Source: Prevotella sp. (GTDB taxonomy: Bacteria; Bacteroidota; Bacteroidia; Bacteroidales; Bacteroidaceae). Taken from it: a stretch of 64,000 nucleotides of DNA. Shown piece by piece: positions 30,058 through 36,582 of this stretch (its first letter is position 1; each line of letters starts with the position of its first letter). The translations under genes and the position numbers were made by a program. The stretch is from NCBI GenBank assembly GCA_017428055.1, contig JAFRRN010000020.1, forward strand, positions 1 to 64,000, given 5' to 3'. The notes beneath the pieces are model-generated. The model was given only the letters and a program-made list of their open reading frames with translations. It was not told the DNA's origin and searched no databases.

Positions 30058-31020
30058 TCACAATGCCTGAATTTCTTCTTCTGATAATCCCGTGACTTCC
30101 GAAATGAAAGAAGTAGCCATGCCACTCGACTTTAAATTCCTCGCAATTTCCATCGACTTTTTCCTTTCGCCTTCTACCATGCCCTCGGCTCTTCCCTCGA
30201 CTCTTCCCTCAACAATTCCCTCGGCTCTTCCCTCAACTAATCCTTTTGCTCTTCCCTCAGCCATTCCCTTGGCTTGCGCTTCTTTACGGGCTGTGGTGAG
30301 GGCATATTTCAAAGTATTGTAATTGTCAAGGTAAACCTTCCAACTTTCATCGTATTCAAGTCTATCCTGCTCATTGAAGTTTGCTATCTTGGCCTGCTCA
30401 AACAATTTCGTGAATATCCGCTCTTGAAGTGCTGCCGGCCTATCCAATAGCCGCGAAAGGTTCTTGAGAACGAAAAGCCACTTGTCGAACATTCCCTCCA
30501 GTTCCTCCTCGGTCTTCTTGAACTTGGGCATCTCGAGATAAATGAAGGTCAGTTTGTCATAAAACACCTCATGTGTCTTCGTATCCATCAACTTCACCTC
30601 ATGATGATAATAATTATCATCTTTGAAGTCAAAGGTGAAATTCAGGATTCCAATGGTATATACACCCTTCAAATGATAGTCCCATTTCTTGCCACGCTCC
30701 GCCTGTTGCCGAATAGGGGTCGTGGCATAATAGATAGTCCTGTCCTTGAAGAACTCCTGCGTCATGTTTTGCATCTCGACGATGAACCTCTCTCCCCTTT
30801 CGTTTTCACAATAGACATCAAACACCTGCACCCTTTCCAAGGCATTATCCCCAAATTGTTCGGTTTTCAGGTATGTCAAGTCTTTGATCTCCTGCTCTCC
30901 TTTGAGAAGAGCATTTAAGAAACTGATAAGGAACTCTTTGTTAAACTCCGTCCCAAACAAATACTTAAAACCAAAATCGGTATAAGGATTGACGAATACA
31001 TCTGGTGAATTTGTTATCAT
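30058..31020 (-). CDS. Rpn-family nuclease / PD-(D/E)XK transposase-like protein
   Basis: 320 residues. The N-terminus (FVNPYTDFGFKYLFG) and the VFDVYCENERGERFIVEMQ motif (Asp, then Glu-x-Gln) are those of the Rpn/YhgA-like PD-(D/E)XK family, which promotes RecA-independent recombination in E. coli. Residues about 250-285 are a run of EGRAEG-type tetrapeptides. A minus-7 promoter element lies 50 bases upstream. It is next to two further nuclease genes. Confidence 0.88.
   Translation of the reverse strand: MITNSPDVFVNPYTDFGFKYLFGTEFNKEFLISFLNALLKGEQEIKDLTYLKTEQFGDNALERVQVFDVYCENERGERFIVEMQNMTQEFFKDRTIYYATTPIRQQAERGKKWDYHLKGVYTIGILNFTFDFKDDNYYHHEVKLMDTKTHEVFYDKLTFIYLEMPKFKKTEEELEGMFDKWLFVLKNLSRLLDRPAALQERIFTKLFEQAKIANFNEQDRLEYDESWKVYLDNYNTLKYALTTARKEAQAKGMAEGRAKGLVEGRAEGIVEGRVEGRAEGMVEGERKKSMEIARNLKSSGMATSFISEVTGLSEEEIQAL
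30178..30279. repeat. 12-bp tandem repeat inside the Rpn gene
   Basis: About eight units of 12 bases (CTCGGCTCTTCC and variants) encode four-residue repeats of the type G-x-V-E-G-R-A-E. The unit length is a multiple of three, so copy-number change would keep the frame. Confidence 0.85.
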
Positions 31021-31199: not shown

Positions 31200-32327
31200 T
31201 CATCTTTCCTTTTCCCCACCTATAGTGGTTGGTGAGGATGATTCTATGAACTCACAAAACTCATTCAACGACTGTTGGATAACCTCTTTTGGTATTAGCA
31301 TTCGATGGTATTCCGCAACCATTGTTGGACTTAGACTACGACTCATAGCATATTCCACGACGCTATGGTCTGCTGAAGGACAAAGCAGAATCCCAATACT
31401 TGGATTCTCGTTGCTACGTCTAACATCCCTATCCAAGGCCTCAAGATAAAATTCCAATTGTCCTATATACTCTGGCTTGAAATGTTTTGCTTTCAACTCA
31501 ATAGCAACCAAACATTGCAATCCCCTATGATAGAACAGCAAATCTATCTTAAACATAGAACCACCAACTTGCAGAGGATATTCACTATCAACGAACAAGA
31601 AATCCTTACCTAGCTCCAAGATGAATTGTTTGATGTGTTCCAAAATGCCTTTATGCAATTGCTTCTCACTATGTCGGCTTGGTAAATTGAGGAAATCGAT
31701 GAAAGCCCTGTCTTTAAACTGTGCCACCGACTGTGGATAAGCAGACTTGAGGCCAATCGACAAATTCTTCTTGTCGCCCATGAGCGAGCCAAAAGTATCA
31801 TTCAAGATACATCGTTGTAGTTCTTTATACTTCAAATGTTCTCTATTGGCATATATGATGTAGAAGATTTGTCGCTCTACATCCTTGCAACGGTTCAATA
31901 TCTCAATATGGTTGGAGAATGTCGTTAATGTCAAAACTTTCGGCATTTGTGCAGATGCCGTCTGCACAATTTCTGTGTTTATTTGTGCAGATGCCGCCTG
32001 CACAGAAAGAGGAAAAGACAAAGATGCCACTCGCGAATAGAATTCCGTGGAGGAATATGCTTCATAGAACATAACCATATTATACAAATTCCTTCGACTA
32101 TATCCTTTTAGTGTAGGGTCCTTTGCCCTCAGATATTCCGACAATTGTGTGACGACCTTACTACCCCACTCTTTGCTTTTTAACCGCTGTGACACTATCT
32201 GCCCAACCTTCCAACTCATCTGTAACGACTCCTCGTTGACATCAACAAGTGCCTTCGTGCGGTGAAACACTATGACATTGCGTATTTCTTCAAATTGTTT
32301 CTCAAAATTTTGTAGCTCGTTGCTCAT
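31200..32327 (-). CDS. YhcG/DUF1016 family PD-(D/E)XK nuclease
   Basis: 375 residues. The N-terminal half has the DUF1016 pattern (SWKVGQIVSQRL, LKGYSRRNLYNMVMFYEAY); the C-terminal half is a PD-(D/E)XK nuclease fold with FKIDLLFYHRGLQCLVAIELKAKHF. Such proteins are frequent beside restriction-modification genes and may act in defence. The gene is visibly richer in A+T than the neighbours. It is 27 bases downstream of the restriction-methylation gene and reads the same way, so it is probably in its transcript. Confidence 0.88.
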   Translation of the reverse strand: MSNELQNFEKQFEEIRNVIVFHRTKALVDVNEESLQMSWKVGQIVSQRLKSKEWGSKVVTQLSEYLRAKDPTLKGYSRRNLYNMVMFYEAYSSTEFYSRVASLSFPLSVQAASAQINTEIVQTASAQMPKVLTLTTFSNHIEILNRCKDVERQIFYIIYANREHLKYKELQRCILNDTFGSLMGDKKNLSIGLKSAYPQSVAQFKDRAFIDFLNLPSRHSEKQLHKGILEHIKQFILELGKDFLFVDSEYPLQVGGSMFKIDLLFYHRGLQCLVAIELKAKHFKPEYIGQLEFYLEALDRDVRRSNENPSIGILLCPSADHSVVEYAMSRSLSPTMVAEYHRMLIPKEVIQQSLNEFCEFIESSSPTTIGGEKER

Positions 32328-32354: not shown

Positions 32355-35300
32355 TTATTGCTCTCTCATATATTCATCCCGCGTGATGGGCGTTTGTGGG
32401 TCAACGATGACAACTTCATCATAGGTCAAGCCGTAGAGACGGTAGACGCGGAGGTCTATCTCCTTGTCGGTGTAGGCTATCTGTCGGGATAGGTCTTGGC
32501 AGGCCTGGGCGTTTTGGTTGAAGTAATCCTCCCACTCGTCTTGTTGCGAAAGCGAGAGTTTTACTTTCTGCTTCCTCAACTCCGAGACAAAGGAACCAAA
32601 GGTCATTTGGTCAAACTTCTGCAACGAACCCGTTATCCTTACGCCCTCCACGTTATCAACCAAACGGCGGAGGAAACGGTTTCGTTTCTCTTGCAACTCT
32701 TTGTTTAGGGAAATCATCGTGTCGGCAAGTGAAACGAAAGGCTGTTGAGATTCTATATCTATATTTGGAATAGGTACTTCAGCTAAAGGCTTATTAAAAT
32801 ATTCTCTGGCATTCCCCTTGGCTTTACCTATGAAACCATAAAACCAATCAAGTAACTTTGAATTGAGCAATGAGAGTAAATACTTAATTGAGATGTCTGA
32901 ATTATCTTTAATGATAATAGCTCTAATGTCTCCTCCATCATTAAAGTATTGATTGTCATCAAATGCAAATCTGTTATGTTCGGCACGATAAGGAACAATT
33001 AGCTTTTCTTTTGCATCGAAAACGACTTTGTTCCTTGGTCTTTCAAGTCTATACCATTTGTACGATCCCTTAATAACTTCATTTCTTTCAGATAAAACTT
33101 GTTTATGACTTAATAAATACTGATAAACGTTAGGATACTTCTCTATCTCTGTCGCATTGTCTGTGTATATTAAAACATTCCCACGATTATTGATGAAATA
33201 CGGCTGAATGTCTCCATTCTTCACATTTTTCCTAATGATGTCGGTTTCAAAATTGTTGACACGTGCAAATTCATCTGATACTGTAAACACATCGTTTTTC
33301 CCAGAAGTGGAGCCCTTCTCAATAATAGCAATATCTTCCATCCGAATAGAAACGCCTTTCATCTTATCTATAATAATGGATGATGTTGTATCTGCTATAA
33401 GCCACGAATCTTGGAGAGTATTCCTTTCGAGGCGACAACTATTGAAATCACTTAACAAATCAATTCCATTGATTGATAAATCATTCTTCTTGTTGTATAT
33501 CTCAATGGGTTCCTTTAGTTCTTTCTTTTTTGCAAATAGAATGGCTGTATGAACATTTGCATCCTCAAATATCATTGCATTATGGAAATTGATAATTCGT
33601 TCTGCATAATTGCCAAGGAAAATCCTTAGTTTCTTTGCATATTCATTTCCTATATAATAATTTGAAGTGATGAAGCCAAGTAATCCATGATGATTAAGCA
33701 AACCTACCCCTTGATATATAAAATAGTACATCAAATCATTATATCCTGTATGTATTTCTGAATAATGGGATTTGAAATATTCATGATTATGTGGTTGTGT
33801 ATTGATATTCACATACGGCGGGTTTCCAATCACCACATCGAATCCTCCTTTGGCAAAGACCTTTGGGAACTCGTGCTGCCAGTCAAACGCCTTGTCGCCT
33901 GCTACGGCGGGGTCGCTAATGAGGGAGTTGCCGCATTTGATGTTTTGGTTGAGGGAATTGAGCTTGCGGTGGGGCTTGGCGGTGCGGAGCCAGAGGGCGA
34001 GTTGTGCTATCTCCACGCTCTCCTCGTTGATGTCCACGCCATAGAGGTTGTTTTCGAGGATGCTTTTTTCCACGTCTTGGAAGATGAGAGATGAGCCTGC
34101 CACCTTCGCTTCCATCTCATCGATGAGTCGATGCTCCGCGATGAGGAACGACAGGGCGGCGTTGAGGAAGGCACCGCTGCCGCATGCGGGGTCGAGGATG
34201 GTGACCTGGAGGAGCCATTCGCGGTATTGCCGCAGCTGGTCGAGGAGACGTCGCTTGGTGGCGGTCTGTCGCTTTTGGTCGGCGAAGTATTGCTCCTCGT
34301 CGATGCCCAGCTCGTGTTTCTTCTCTTGGCAGAGCCGTCCCACGGTGTGGGTTACAATGTATTTCGTGATGTATTGCGGCGTGTAGAACACGCCGTCTTG
34401 CTTGCGCTTGGAGACGACAGGGGCTTCTGTTTGTTGCGGTGACACCGCAACAGACGGGACGAAGGGGGTTGTAGAGGCGAGAGCCTTTGCCTTGACCTCT
34501 TCAATCTCAGAGAGCGAATGCTCGAAGATATGCCCGAGGATGTTCACATCCACGTCGCTCTCGAAGTCGTAGGCGGAGAGGCGGCGGGTGTGTTCCACCA
34601 ACAACGGGTCGCTGATGGTAAGCGCGTCGAGCACCTCGTCGGGCTTGAAGAGCCCTCCGTTATAGGCAAATATCTCGTATTTCTTGCCTTGGTAGCCCTC
34701 ATTCAGATAGTTGAAGTGTTTTTTCAGGATGTCATAGAGAGGCCGGTATTCGTCATTGTCCTTCAGCAACTGCCACCGCTCGATGATATGGGCAATCATG
34801 TTTGTGGGCAACAGCCCGCCATCCTCGGCGAAGAAGATGAAGAGGAGGCGGTCGAGCAGTTTCTGCGTCTTCTTGAAGAGCAGCAACTGCCAGTCCTTGA
34901 TGTCGCTTGCCCAAGGGTTGCTCTCCCCATACGGATTGTTGGCGAGTATGTCTGCGAAGAGCAGACGCTTGAATTGCGAGTAGTCACGGTATAGGGCGTT
35001 GGTGATCTGGTCCTCTTTCGACACCGACTCCCCCATCATCCGCAACGCCGTGCCTTTCCTTACTTCCTGCCAGGCAAGGCAGAGATAGAGTTCCTTGAAA
35101 TCATCCTCAGCCATATAGAAGAGGCTCCACTCACGGTAAGCCACGGCATTGTCGATGTAAAGGCGCAGCTTCTCGAAATTGGATGTGATGACCAGACGGG
35201 TGCCAACGTGCTGGTTCTTATACCCAAAGGCCTGTGCCTCGACCTTGGAGAGGTCGGTCGTCTTGTGGTCTTTCAGCTCAATCACACCGATGACCTTGCC

Positions 35301-35579
35301 CTCGACGATGATTGCCCCGTCGGCTTTCTTGGCATTGGTGGCGTTTTTCTGCTCCGTGATGAGGTTGTAGCCGGGCGAGGGATTGAGGGTATAGCCCAAT
35401 ATTTTCACGAACAACTCGCGCAGGAAGCCCTCCTGGAACTGCTCTTCCTTCGACTGGAGGATGTTAGCCTGTATCTCCCTGTCCATGAAATAACGGCGGT
35501 ACTTGTCCCACGCCCCGTCGGTCTCCTCCTTTGGCAGGGCGGCAAGATACTTCTTGACGATATTCTTCTGAAACAACAT
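32355..35579 (-). CDS. Type IIG-like restriction enzyme/DNA methyltransferase
   Basis: 1074 residues. A nuclease-like N-terminus has the PD-(D/E)XK core DGAIIVEGKVIGVIELKDHK near residues 95-110. The adenine-methyltransferase core shows motif I TILDPACGSGAFLNAAL near residue 460 and motif IV IGNPPYVN near residue 586. The C-terminal third is a TaqI-type specificity region ending in a coiled segment. This is the Eco57I-like single-chain layout. Bases about 32745-33800, the specificity part, are much richer in A+T than the G+C-rich flanks within the same gene, which suggests replacement of the recognition domain. An array of palindromes lies upstream. Confidence 0.9.
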   Translation of the reverse strand: MLFQKNIVKKYLAALPKEETDGAWDKYRRYFMDREIQANILQSKEEQFQEGFLRELFVKILGYTLNPSPGYNLITEQKNATNAKKADGAIIVEGKVIGVIELKDHKTTDLSKVEAQAFGYKNQHVGTRLVITSNFEKLRLYIDNAVAYREWSLFYMAEDDFKELYLCLAWQEVRKGTALRMMGESVSKEDQITNALYRDYSQFKRLLFADILANNPYGESNPWASDIKDWQLLLFKKTQKLLDRLLFIFFAEDGGLLPTNMIAHIIERWQLLKDNDEYRPLYDILKKHFNYLNEGYQGKKYEIFAYNGGLFKPDEVLDALTISDPLLVEHTRRLSAYDFESDVDVNILGHIFEHSLSEIEEVKAKALASTTPFVPSVAVSPQQTEAPVVSKRKQDGVFYTPQYITKYIVTHTVGRLCQEKKHELGIDEEQYFADQKRQTATKRRLLDQLRQYREWLLQVTILDPACGSGAFLNAALSFLIAEHRLIDEMEAKVAGSSLIFQDVEKSILENNLYGVDINEESVEIAQLALWLRTAKPHRKLNSLNQNIKCGNSLISDPAVAGDKAFDWQHEFPKVFAKGGFDVVIGNPPYVNINTQPHNHEYFKSHYSEIHTGYNDLMYYFIYQGVGLLNHHGLLGFITSNYYIGNEYAKKLRIFLGNYAERIINFHNAMIFEDANVHTAILFAKKKELKEPIEIYNKKNDLSINGIDLLSDFNSCRLERNTLQDSWLIADTTSSIIIDKMKGVSIRMEDIAIIEKGSTSGKNDVFTVSDEFARVNNFETDIIRKNVKNGDIQPYFINNRGNVLIYTDNATEIEKYPNVYQYLLSHKQVLSERNEVIKGSYKWYRLERPRNKVVFDAKEKLIVPYRAEHNRFAFDDNQYFNDGGDIRAIIIKDNSDISIKYLLSLLNSKLLDWFYGFIGKAKGNAREYFNKPLAEVPIPNIDIESQQPFVSLADTMISLNKELQEKRNRFLRRLVDNVEGVRITGSLQKFDQMTFGSFVSELRKQKVKLSLSQQDEWEDYFNQNAQACQDLSRQIAYTDKEIDLRVYRLYGLTYDEVVIVDPQTPITRDEYMREQ

Positions 35580-35750
35580 GTCCTTCCTTGTTTAACGTTT
35601 TCCAATCATCAATCCATGGTGAGCCATCCATGATTTGACGACAAATATACACATAAAAATCCAAAGTCAACGTTGTTTGGGAAAGAAACTGATAGTATAA
35701 GACAAGTTCATCCTACGCTTTGCCATCGACAGAGTTATCATTTGGATTCG

Positions 35751-35877
35751 GTATCTGCCACAGATAATAAGATTATATGACACATATAATCACTTTATAT
35801 GATACAGATAATAACTTTATATGATACATATAAAATCATTATATGCCGCATATAATAAACGTAAATACGGCATTTAC
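35751..35877. repeat. Six palindromes phased at exactly 22 bp
   Basis: Six 17-bp units of the form 7-3-7 begin at 35751, 35773, 35795, 35817, 35839 and 35861. Units 2, 4 and 5 are perfect TTATATG-N3-CATATAA palindromes; units 1 (GTATCTG-CCA-CAGATAA), 3 (TTATATG-ATA-CAGATAA) and 6 (GTAAATA-CGG-CATTTAC) each match in six of seven positions. The middle three bases and the 5-bp gaps vary. A 22-bp step is two helical turns, so all sites face the same side of the DNA. The array is 170-300 bases before the start of the restriction-methylation gene. It looks like a cooperative operator or iteron set. Confidence 0.88.
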
Positions 35878-35916
35878 GAAACGCGAAGCATAAATCCGAA
35901 AAAAAGGAAGGGGGCA

Positions 35917-36582
35917 TCAGTCGATGACAAAGAGGTCTTTGCCCTCCACTCGGAAATGAATGTCGTGGCCGTCGAAGAGCATCCCATAGACCTTGTTGGG
36001 GTCGTCGTGGTAATGCGGACGTGGGTCGAGCGCGAGCGTTTGCGACAATGCCGCCCGCTCGTCATCGTCGAAAAGCGATGCCACTGAGGACGACAGATGC
36101 ACCGTGAGCCTCGGCCATGAGCGGCGGTCGGTGAACCCGCCCCGCGCCTCAGGGTGTGCATCGGCGTATGGAAGATAGGGCTTGATGTCGTAGATGGGTG
36201 TGCCGTCCATGAGGTCTGCGCCAAGGACATGGATAATGGGGCCACGGGGCGACTCCCATTCGATACGGTCAATCTTCACCACCGACAGCCCTAACGGGTT
36301 CGGACGATAGGGCGAGCGCGTGGCAAACACCCCCATACGCTCGTTGCCTCCCAACACGGGCGGTCGCACCACAGGGCTATTGGCACCGTGCTTGTTGGCG
36401 GAAAACTCCCATATCAACCAGATATAGTCAAACTCTTCCATGCCACGGAGGGAATCGACGTTGCGAAACGCCGGTTCAAACACGACTTCTCCTTGCAGCT
36501 CTTGCACCAGTCCGCTCTGCTTGGGAATGCCAAACTTGGTTGGAAAAGGGGAATGGAATGTGGCAATGGGCTGTATCTCCAT
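35917..36582 (-). CDS. trmO: tRNA (t6A37)-N6-methyltransferase TrmO
   Basis: 221 residues. The UPF0066/TsaA beta-barrel appears in the first 140 residues with GLVQELQGEVVF, FDYIWLIWEFS, GVFATRSPYRPNPLGLS and VLGADLMDGTPIYDIKPYLPY, followed by a C-terminal domain as in the E. coli protein. It methylates N6-threonylcarbamoyladenosine at position 37 of threonine tRNAs. It begins one base after the PAP2 stop codon. Confidence 0.93.
   Translation of the reverse strand: MEIQPIATFHSPFPTKFGIPKQSGLVQELQGEVVFEPAFRNVDSLRGMEEFDYIWLIWEFSANKHGANSPVVRPPVLGGNERMGVFATRSPYRPNPLGLSVVKIDRIEWESPRGPIIHVLGADLMDGTPIYDIKPYLPYADAHPEARGGFTDRRSWPRLTVHLSSSVASLFDDDERAALSQTLALDPRPHYHDDPNKVYGMLFDGHDIHFRVEGKDLFVID

Follow-up and report, generated by a model that had tools for sequence, protein, structure and literature searches.

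What is an array of phased palindromes doing beside a set of defence genes? The question is raised by a locus of Prevotella sp. in the window analysed here, the first 64,000 nucleotides of contig JAFRRN010000020.1. At positions 35751-35877, with no strand assigned, six palindromes of 17 bp (two 7-bp arms around a 3-bp centre) are separated by 5-bp spacers and begin at 35751, 35773, 35795, 35817, 35839 and 35861, an exact step of 22 bp. The units match, in order, 6, 7, 6, 7, 7 and 6 of 7 arm pairs, a total of 39/42. When the surrounding 260 bp were shuffled 2000 times with dinucleotides preserved, no six-unit score exceeded 25. At steps 18 to 32, and with a minimum of 18/21 pairs for three palindromes, the window contains this run and no second one. 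The six 7-3-7 palindromes over 127 bases reported in an earlier, sequence-only reading of this DNA are thus confirmed. Two of the compensating arms quoted there (GTATCTG/CAGATAA and GTAAATA/CATTTAC) each pair at 6/7 positions, not at 7/7, and the compensating changes, while present within the array, are modest: in the alignment with the orthologous array of one related genome, one unit is changed symmetrically in both arms, two on one side only, one carries two unpaired changes and two have unchanged arms. Between the window locus and this related genome the phasing is kept exactly and the arm symmetry is mostly kept. As to the proposed two-turn phasing, 22 bp corresponds to 2.1 turns at 10.5 bp/turn; over six units the sites would therefore shift to other faces of the helix, except in DNA wound at close to 11 bp/turn. 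Symmetric half-sites, the fixed step and the lack of an RNA wobble bias (see below) are consistent with dimer binding, as the same reading had proposed.

The array does lie upstream of defence genes. The minus strand carries the gene of a type IIG restriction enzyme-methyltransferase (32355-35579; Pfam Eco57I, E 1.8e-43; PADLOC REase_MTase_IIG, E 9.5e-254) and a gene for a DUF1016/YhcG-type nuclease (31200-32327), which is a PDC-S02 defence candidate by Pfam and PADLOC and a neighbour outside the element. A PDDEXK_2 gene (PF12784, PD-(D/E)XK nuclease family transposase; 30058-31020 of the window) adjoins the restriction and YhcG genes and has no PADLOC match. On the other side of the array, the gene of the tRNA methyltransferase TrmO (35917-36582, minus strand; PF01980, E 9.9e-45) has its stop codon 39 bp away. 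It is very improbable that the array controls the restriction/defence genes locally, be it as an operator or as the silencer or sensor first suggested. Its position upstream of the type IIG and PDC-S02 genes fits such a role, and the related genome has kept the array together with its TrmO side and, towards the restriction gene, a long reading frame; however, the TrmO stop is nearer to the array than the start codon of the type IIG gene (171 bp), a promoter-like TAnnTTTG stands between array and gene on the minus strand (35642-35649, 70 bp upstream of the start), and the same palindrome family recurs at about 30 other loci of the genome. The flank that holds the promoter-like site is nearly identical in the related genome. 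We infer that the window array has no specific tie to the restriction gene; a phased palindrome array adjoining defence genes need not regulate them. The suggestion of a plasmid-type iteron fares no better, the palindromes being present at many loci, and no rep domain was found among the Pfam matches of the 10 neighbouring window proteins.

The family of the window array, named here after its TATATG letters, is dispersed over the genome (G000, 4.2 Mb in 106 contigs). BLAST of the array region gave 13 further partial matches at 12 other loci, and a covariance model of unit pairs (R1) found 24 loci at E<=0.1, the window included, 18 of which made up its training set. A model of the element ends (R2) added eight loci at E<=0.026 (three in the R2 training set, two with one end only), which brings the sequence family to about 32 loci. 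In a one-unit search that presupposes no spacing, 58 places were found against 14 for the reversed control; 50 of them were listed, and all 19 neighbours no more than 100 bp apart in that list were spaced by 22 bp (17) or 44 bp (2). The number of units, n, ranges from 1 to 6 in the elements inspected, and the multi-unit arrays measured keep the 22-bp step. The smallest element seen, a one-unit form, is a perfect 45-bp palindrome at C62:13180-13224 (L134:281-325; stretch C62:12900-13500), thus the length of an element is 45 + 22(n-1). Tandem repeats of 22 bp with imperfect palindromy (GTACATGCCCTTTGTAC-CATTC) or nearly none (TTTATATGACACAGAGCAATGC) were read by eye in L141 (G000:C36:2900-3550) and L012 (G000:C37:66519-69574); the period of 22 bp may persist after the symmetry is lost, or arise before it.

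The 22-bp ruler is shared by arrays with different letters. A sequence-free scan (three 7-3-7 palindromes with at least 18/21 pairs) of 799 kb of the own genome, in which 10 kb of contig C17 were counted twice, found ten arrays at step 22, of which no more than two have TATATG letters; the other steps from 14 to 40 gave two matches at 33, which are the same arrays as at step 22, and a separate one at 37. In the first 400 kb, picked away from the known arrays, there were three arrays, all at step 22 and none of the TATATG type. When at least 20/21 pairs were demanded over steps 14-40 and loops 0-9, only step 22 with loop 3 (6) and step 22 with loop 5 (5) were left, the latter being the same geometry centred on the spacer. 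The letter sets seen are GTCCAAG/CTTGGAC, GTAAACA/TGTTTGC (with GTTTGCG/CGCAAAC), TGGTAAT/ATTACCA and TATATG, with a further set, TTTTCCG/GGGAAAA, at the loose threshold only. Several families of one genome have thus the same 22-bp geometry and different arm letters. At the loose threshold of 17, single matches occur at several other steps, and more at step 33. The false positives of the scan were assessed at four other steps in 18 stretches: three scores of 16-17 were seen among 72 tests (L170, 17/21 at step 23 and 16 at step 24; L163, 16/21 at step 23), to be compared with three stretches at 16-17 at step 22. Single loose matches are not trustworthy.

Elsewhere in the genus, 200 kb of G044 held three arrays at step 22 and one at 32, and 100 kb of G056 one at step 22, while 80 kb of G070, 400 kb of G016 and 400 kb of G040 contained no step-22 array; the feature is therefore absent at such density from some genomes of the genus. 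G044 has 22-bp-step families of its own, CAAAGTT-AAT-AACTTTG and CAATATA-GCC-TATTTTG, for each of which the 200 kb contain three places at the loose threshold of 17/21 (stretches L257, L258, L261 and L260, L261, L263, respectively).

Sequence constraint is most pronounced in the family with GTCCAA arms. With up to three mismatches allowed, the own genome has 57 occurrences of the GTCCAAG pair at 22 bp, none of them reversed; the pair is absent from 149 other genomes of the genus (the related genome G077 lies outside this set) and has no exact match in viral contigs. The 13 arrays inspected have three units each, and 39/39 units carry an exact GTCCAA-N5-TTGGAC, whereas the seventh arm base, the centres, the spacers and the flanks vary. 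Ten of the 13 were the top matches of the pattern and their perfection is therefore partly due to selection; the sequence-free scan detected the remaining three arrays and one of the ten. Over 863 kb, GTCCAA-N5-TTGGAC has 12 exact sites, all in four triplets, one site at one mismatch and 18 at two; the corresponding numbers are 0, 0 and 41 for the N6 control and 0, 1 and 42 for N4, so that two-mismatch sites are rarer than in either control. Successive half-sites up to 40 bp apart are spaced by exactly 11 bp, in alternating orientation, in 20/25 cases, and these 20 are the four triplets. Comparison of the 13 flanks with part of the own genome yielded nothing useful as to paralogous empty sites. 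The TATATG family is much looser: only 10/39 columns are invariant in 43 selected unit pairs, and one-sided arm changes between species are common, and this speaks against carrying the GTCCAA argument over to the window array. The TATATG family may be decaying or less constrained.

What two of the families have in common, apart from the ruler, is the cap at the element ends. In the window, the left cap, an inverted end in the TTATCATTTGGATTCGG region that looks like the ends of other elements, occupies 35730-35750 on the plus strand (R2 match 35733-35767, E 2.0e-4), and the right cap, an inverted copy reading ATTTATGCTTCGCGTTTC from outside to inside, 35878-35895 on the minus strand (R2 match 35861-35895, E 3.0e-5); both ends belong to the R2 training set. 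Both caps are kept at the orthologous locus, and many arrays of the window's family end in an inverted cap. The end consensus, built from 30 ends picked for good preservation, is TATCGTTTGCnTTTn preceding GTATATG. The GTCCAA (26 ends) and GTATATG (30 ends) families have a common cap, TnAA..TATCGTTTG, in the same register: their alignment scores 1.81 at shift 0 and at most 0.95 at 13 other shifts, and the TTATATG flavour likewise peaks at register 0 (1.05 and 1.02). From the cap centre to the first unit the distance is again 22 bp. The five-base centres of GTCCAA (13 loci) and TATATG (28 loci) overlap, GCCGC, GATAC and GATGC being found in both, with unrelated arms.

The 38 loci of the own genome, all families taken together, show no operator-like placement. 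Thirteen lie between tandem, six between convergent and six between divergent genes, three within short uncertain ORFs, and ten have no two callable neighbours; 5/13 tandem arrays are closer to the upstream stop than to the downstream start. The 13 GTCCAA loci are likewise mixed (six tandem, three divergent, two convergent and two in ORFs with uncertain starts). A preference for 3' ends and convergent gaps, suggested by the first own loci (11 tandem, 5 convergent, 0 divergent), was lost when the other families and another ORF caller were taken into account. Genes beside the non-TATATG arrays encode HolA-like, CstA, DnaA, pectate-lyase-like, FTCD and other proteins. Among 10 proteins beside six such arrays one has no Pfam match, and the rest are unrelated to each other and to defence. 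The mixed orientations and unrelated neighbours suggest that the arrays are neither regulon-like nor tied to defence.

When the array was compared by BLAST with its own genome and with those of 39 relatives, matches came from the own genome only. A degenerate 2.5-unit pattern searched in 84,980 species genomes retrieved 56 stretches, 46 of them titled Prevotella or Prevotellaceae and ten scattered over other taxa, with 14 from RUG12198, nine from RGIG7572 and many from ruminant guts; it had no exact match in viral contigs. The array flavours differ among Prevotella genomes. In RGIG7572 (G077, a related Prevotella MAG) gene order and flanking DNA identify the orthologue of the window locus, the array of which has six units and both caps in the same register. 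For five of nine G077 arrays the own genome has an element at the corresponding place, and for four it has none. The unit numbers (G077/own) are 6/6 at the window and 3/2, 3/5, 3/1 and 3/2 at the others; the difference is a clean 44 bp at the 3-versus-1 locus, where the one-unit element of L134 faces three units, while two further loci differ by a net 22 and 44 bp. For the reverse comparison the flanks of 18 own elements were used, 11 of which aligned, the remaining seven giving no match, a weak match or a contig end. The 11 aligned loci comprise one with an array of the same type in G077, seven without an array and three with a 22-bp-step run of different letters. These three runs, found in the same gap at contigs C3, C102 and C17, score 16, 17 and 17 of 21 (at most 15 in 300 shuffles each) and are weaker than the own arrays, with 5, 5, 6; 4, 7, 6; and 6, 6, 5 of 7 pairs per unit. 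No clean empty site or target duplication was found at the loci, also 11 in number, where one genome only has an array, the intergenic flanks being often too diverged to align.

That the arrays act in RNA, as small hairpins strung along a transcript, is very improbable. The unit arms do covary (43 cells changed on both sides vs 19.1 in shuffles, mostly the difference between two flavours) and some arrays stand directly behind stop codons; however, on the presumed sense strand 31 G-U and 34 A-C mismatches were counted among 763 pairs (31/35 tandem arrays; of the four left out, three belong to records outside Prevotella and one has an ambiguous orientation), and the lack of a G-U preference argues against selection on an RNA hairpin. 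Moreover, arrays are present in divergent gaps too, and Rfam at gathering scores gave no match in the window. A tRNA scan of the window also found nothing. The most serious competitor, although we consider it rather unlikely, is a MITE-like, non-autonomous minisatellite with inverted ends, moved by a putative transposase and gaining or losing whole 22-bp units, whose palindromes would be DNA structure at most. The shared inverted caps, the perfect 45-bp palindrome of the one-unit element, the presence or absence of elements between species, the clean 44-bp difference in unit number (net 22 or 44 bp elsewhere) and the restriction of the GTCCAA family to one species (the own genome only, of 150) all agree with it. 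Against it, no parent transposon was seen, no two end-model matches lying 0.7-3 kb apart in the 106 contigs, from which a collapsed element could be missing, and neither a clean empty site nor a target duplication was obtained from the often diverged flanks. A drifting repeat would show a decay series, which the invariant GTCCAA half-sites lack, and unrelated letters on one ruler are left unexplained by this model.

A new REP/RAYT branch, mobilised by a Y1 (HUH) transposase, we regard as a less probable form of mobility. Short, species-private, multi-copy extragenic palindromes are what such a branch would leave, and the window's genome has one Y1 gene. In RUG12198 (G076), both Y1 loci (3.3 kb) carry a 22-step palindrome run of 18/21: at L128:2071-2150 four AT-rich units lie about 230 bp past the Y1 match between inverted flanks CCTAAACTTT...AAAGTTTAGG, which resemble other array ends of this genome, and at L131:152-212 the run is about 1.3 kb from the Y1 match. 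These loci favour a REP-like mobile element and speak against a reading in terms of protein sites. However, the other four of the six Y1 loci have no run, that of the own genome, cut by a contig end, included; Y1 (PF01797) was found in just 4/8 of the array-bearing genomes searched and not in the other four (incomplete MAGs, G077 among them), and the end consensus of two families has, by eye, no directional GTAG or CGTC tag.

The nearest known systems are the BrickBuilt MITEs and the REP/REPIN elements, and each fails at least one of the features compared. According to the part of its description drawn on here, BrickBuilt of Porphyromonas gingivalis, the nearest described element, has 19 dispersed copies, described as always intergenic, with strain-variable unit number; its 23-nt tandem units form one direct-repeat family with some indels and up to 22.8 copies, and a leader and tail of up to 285/318 nt bear IS5-like ends (GAGACCTTTGCA) (PMC4596501). 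The likeness, as far as that part goes, lies in the same order, tandem units of near-equal length, a leader and tail with inverted ends, and predicted stem-loops (PMC4596501). The present elements are similarly intergenic and dispersed and have inverted-repeat ends (3/38 loci overlap short ORFs and ten are unplaced). They differ from what is given there for BrickBuilt in period, symmetry, ends and the single sequence family: instead of a 23-nt direct repeat without spacers there is a 22-bp step of palindromic units, 1-6 per element; instead of the IS5-family ends GAGACCTTTGCA there are short caps, TATCRTTYGC, with the consensus TATCGTTTGCnTTTn in the 30 well-preserved ends; and several unrelated unit sequences coexist in one genome. 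REPs, in the parts of two reports that we used, are linked with RAYT genes and bear a terminal tag, GTAG or CGTC, on one side, and tandem REPs of P. fluorescens SBW25 are spaced by 72/112 bp (PMC3116915, PMC3733652). With REP/REPIN the arrays have in common that they are many-copy, short, lineage-private extragenic palindromes of inverted organisation, with a possible Y1 neighbour in one genome; on this partial account they differ in that no tag is seen, the step is 22 bp, and Y1 was not found in half of the genomes searched. Tandem operators of cooperating dimers, such as the ARG boxes of ArgR and the lambda CI operators, offer another parallel, with 17-18-bp palindromes about two helical turns apart and contacts between neighbouring dimers. 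Such operators serve one regulon, whereas the arrays stand at unrelated loci, with several private letter sets on one ruler. Plasmid iterons, also repeated at a step of about 22 bp, are directly repeated at a single origin accompanied by a Rep gene, while the present units are palindromes dispersed over the genome. No description of 22-bp palindrome arrays in Prevotella was found in the open-licence papers searched.

We propose, with a probability of about 0.5, that these are dispersed elements built of sites for a homodimeric protein, one subunit per 11 bp. An element would consist of a cap, n palindromic 17-bp units with 5-bp spacers and an inverted cap, placed in intergenic DNA and dispersed over the genome. 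The arms of each family would be the half-sites of a putative sequence-specific homodimeric DNA-binding protein, whose subunits may line up along the DNA at one per 11 bp, with head-to-head and tail-to-tail contacts in turn. The invariant half-sites, free centres and spacers and alternating 11-bp spacing of the GTCCAA family are what the packing of a homodimer along the helix would require, and it is the constraint on these half-sites, as read from the DNA, which suggests an operator array of a dimeric protein. Dispersal, species privacy, the constant unit number of one family and the shared inverted caps point to sites that travel as an element, and the elements would have spread by copying in each lineage. 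The role of the bound array is probably in local chromosome or DNA architecture. The absence of a family from relatives would also fit a young repeat without function.

In bacteria, a family of dispersed palindromes usually has a single sequence and depends on a single enzyme. In the present genome one geometry is common to different letter sets, which seem to have been replaced in place between species at a few loci, and this points to a protein family. More tentatively than the protein-site reading itself, we suggest that gut Prevotella may possess a class of arrays with alternating half-sites every 11 bp, in several species-private letter sets per genome, read by diversifying homodimers that form short filaments, the ruler being conserved while the letters turn over even at the same locus. 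Such a protein family would combine a fixed assembly geometry with a fast-changing specificity in a major rumen genus.
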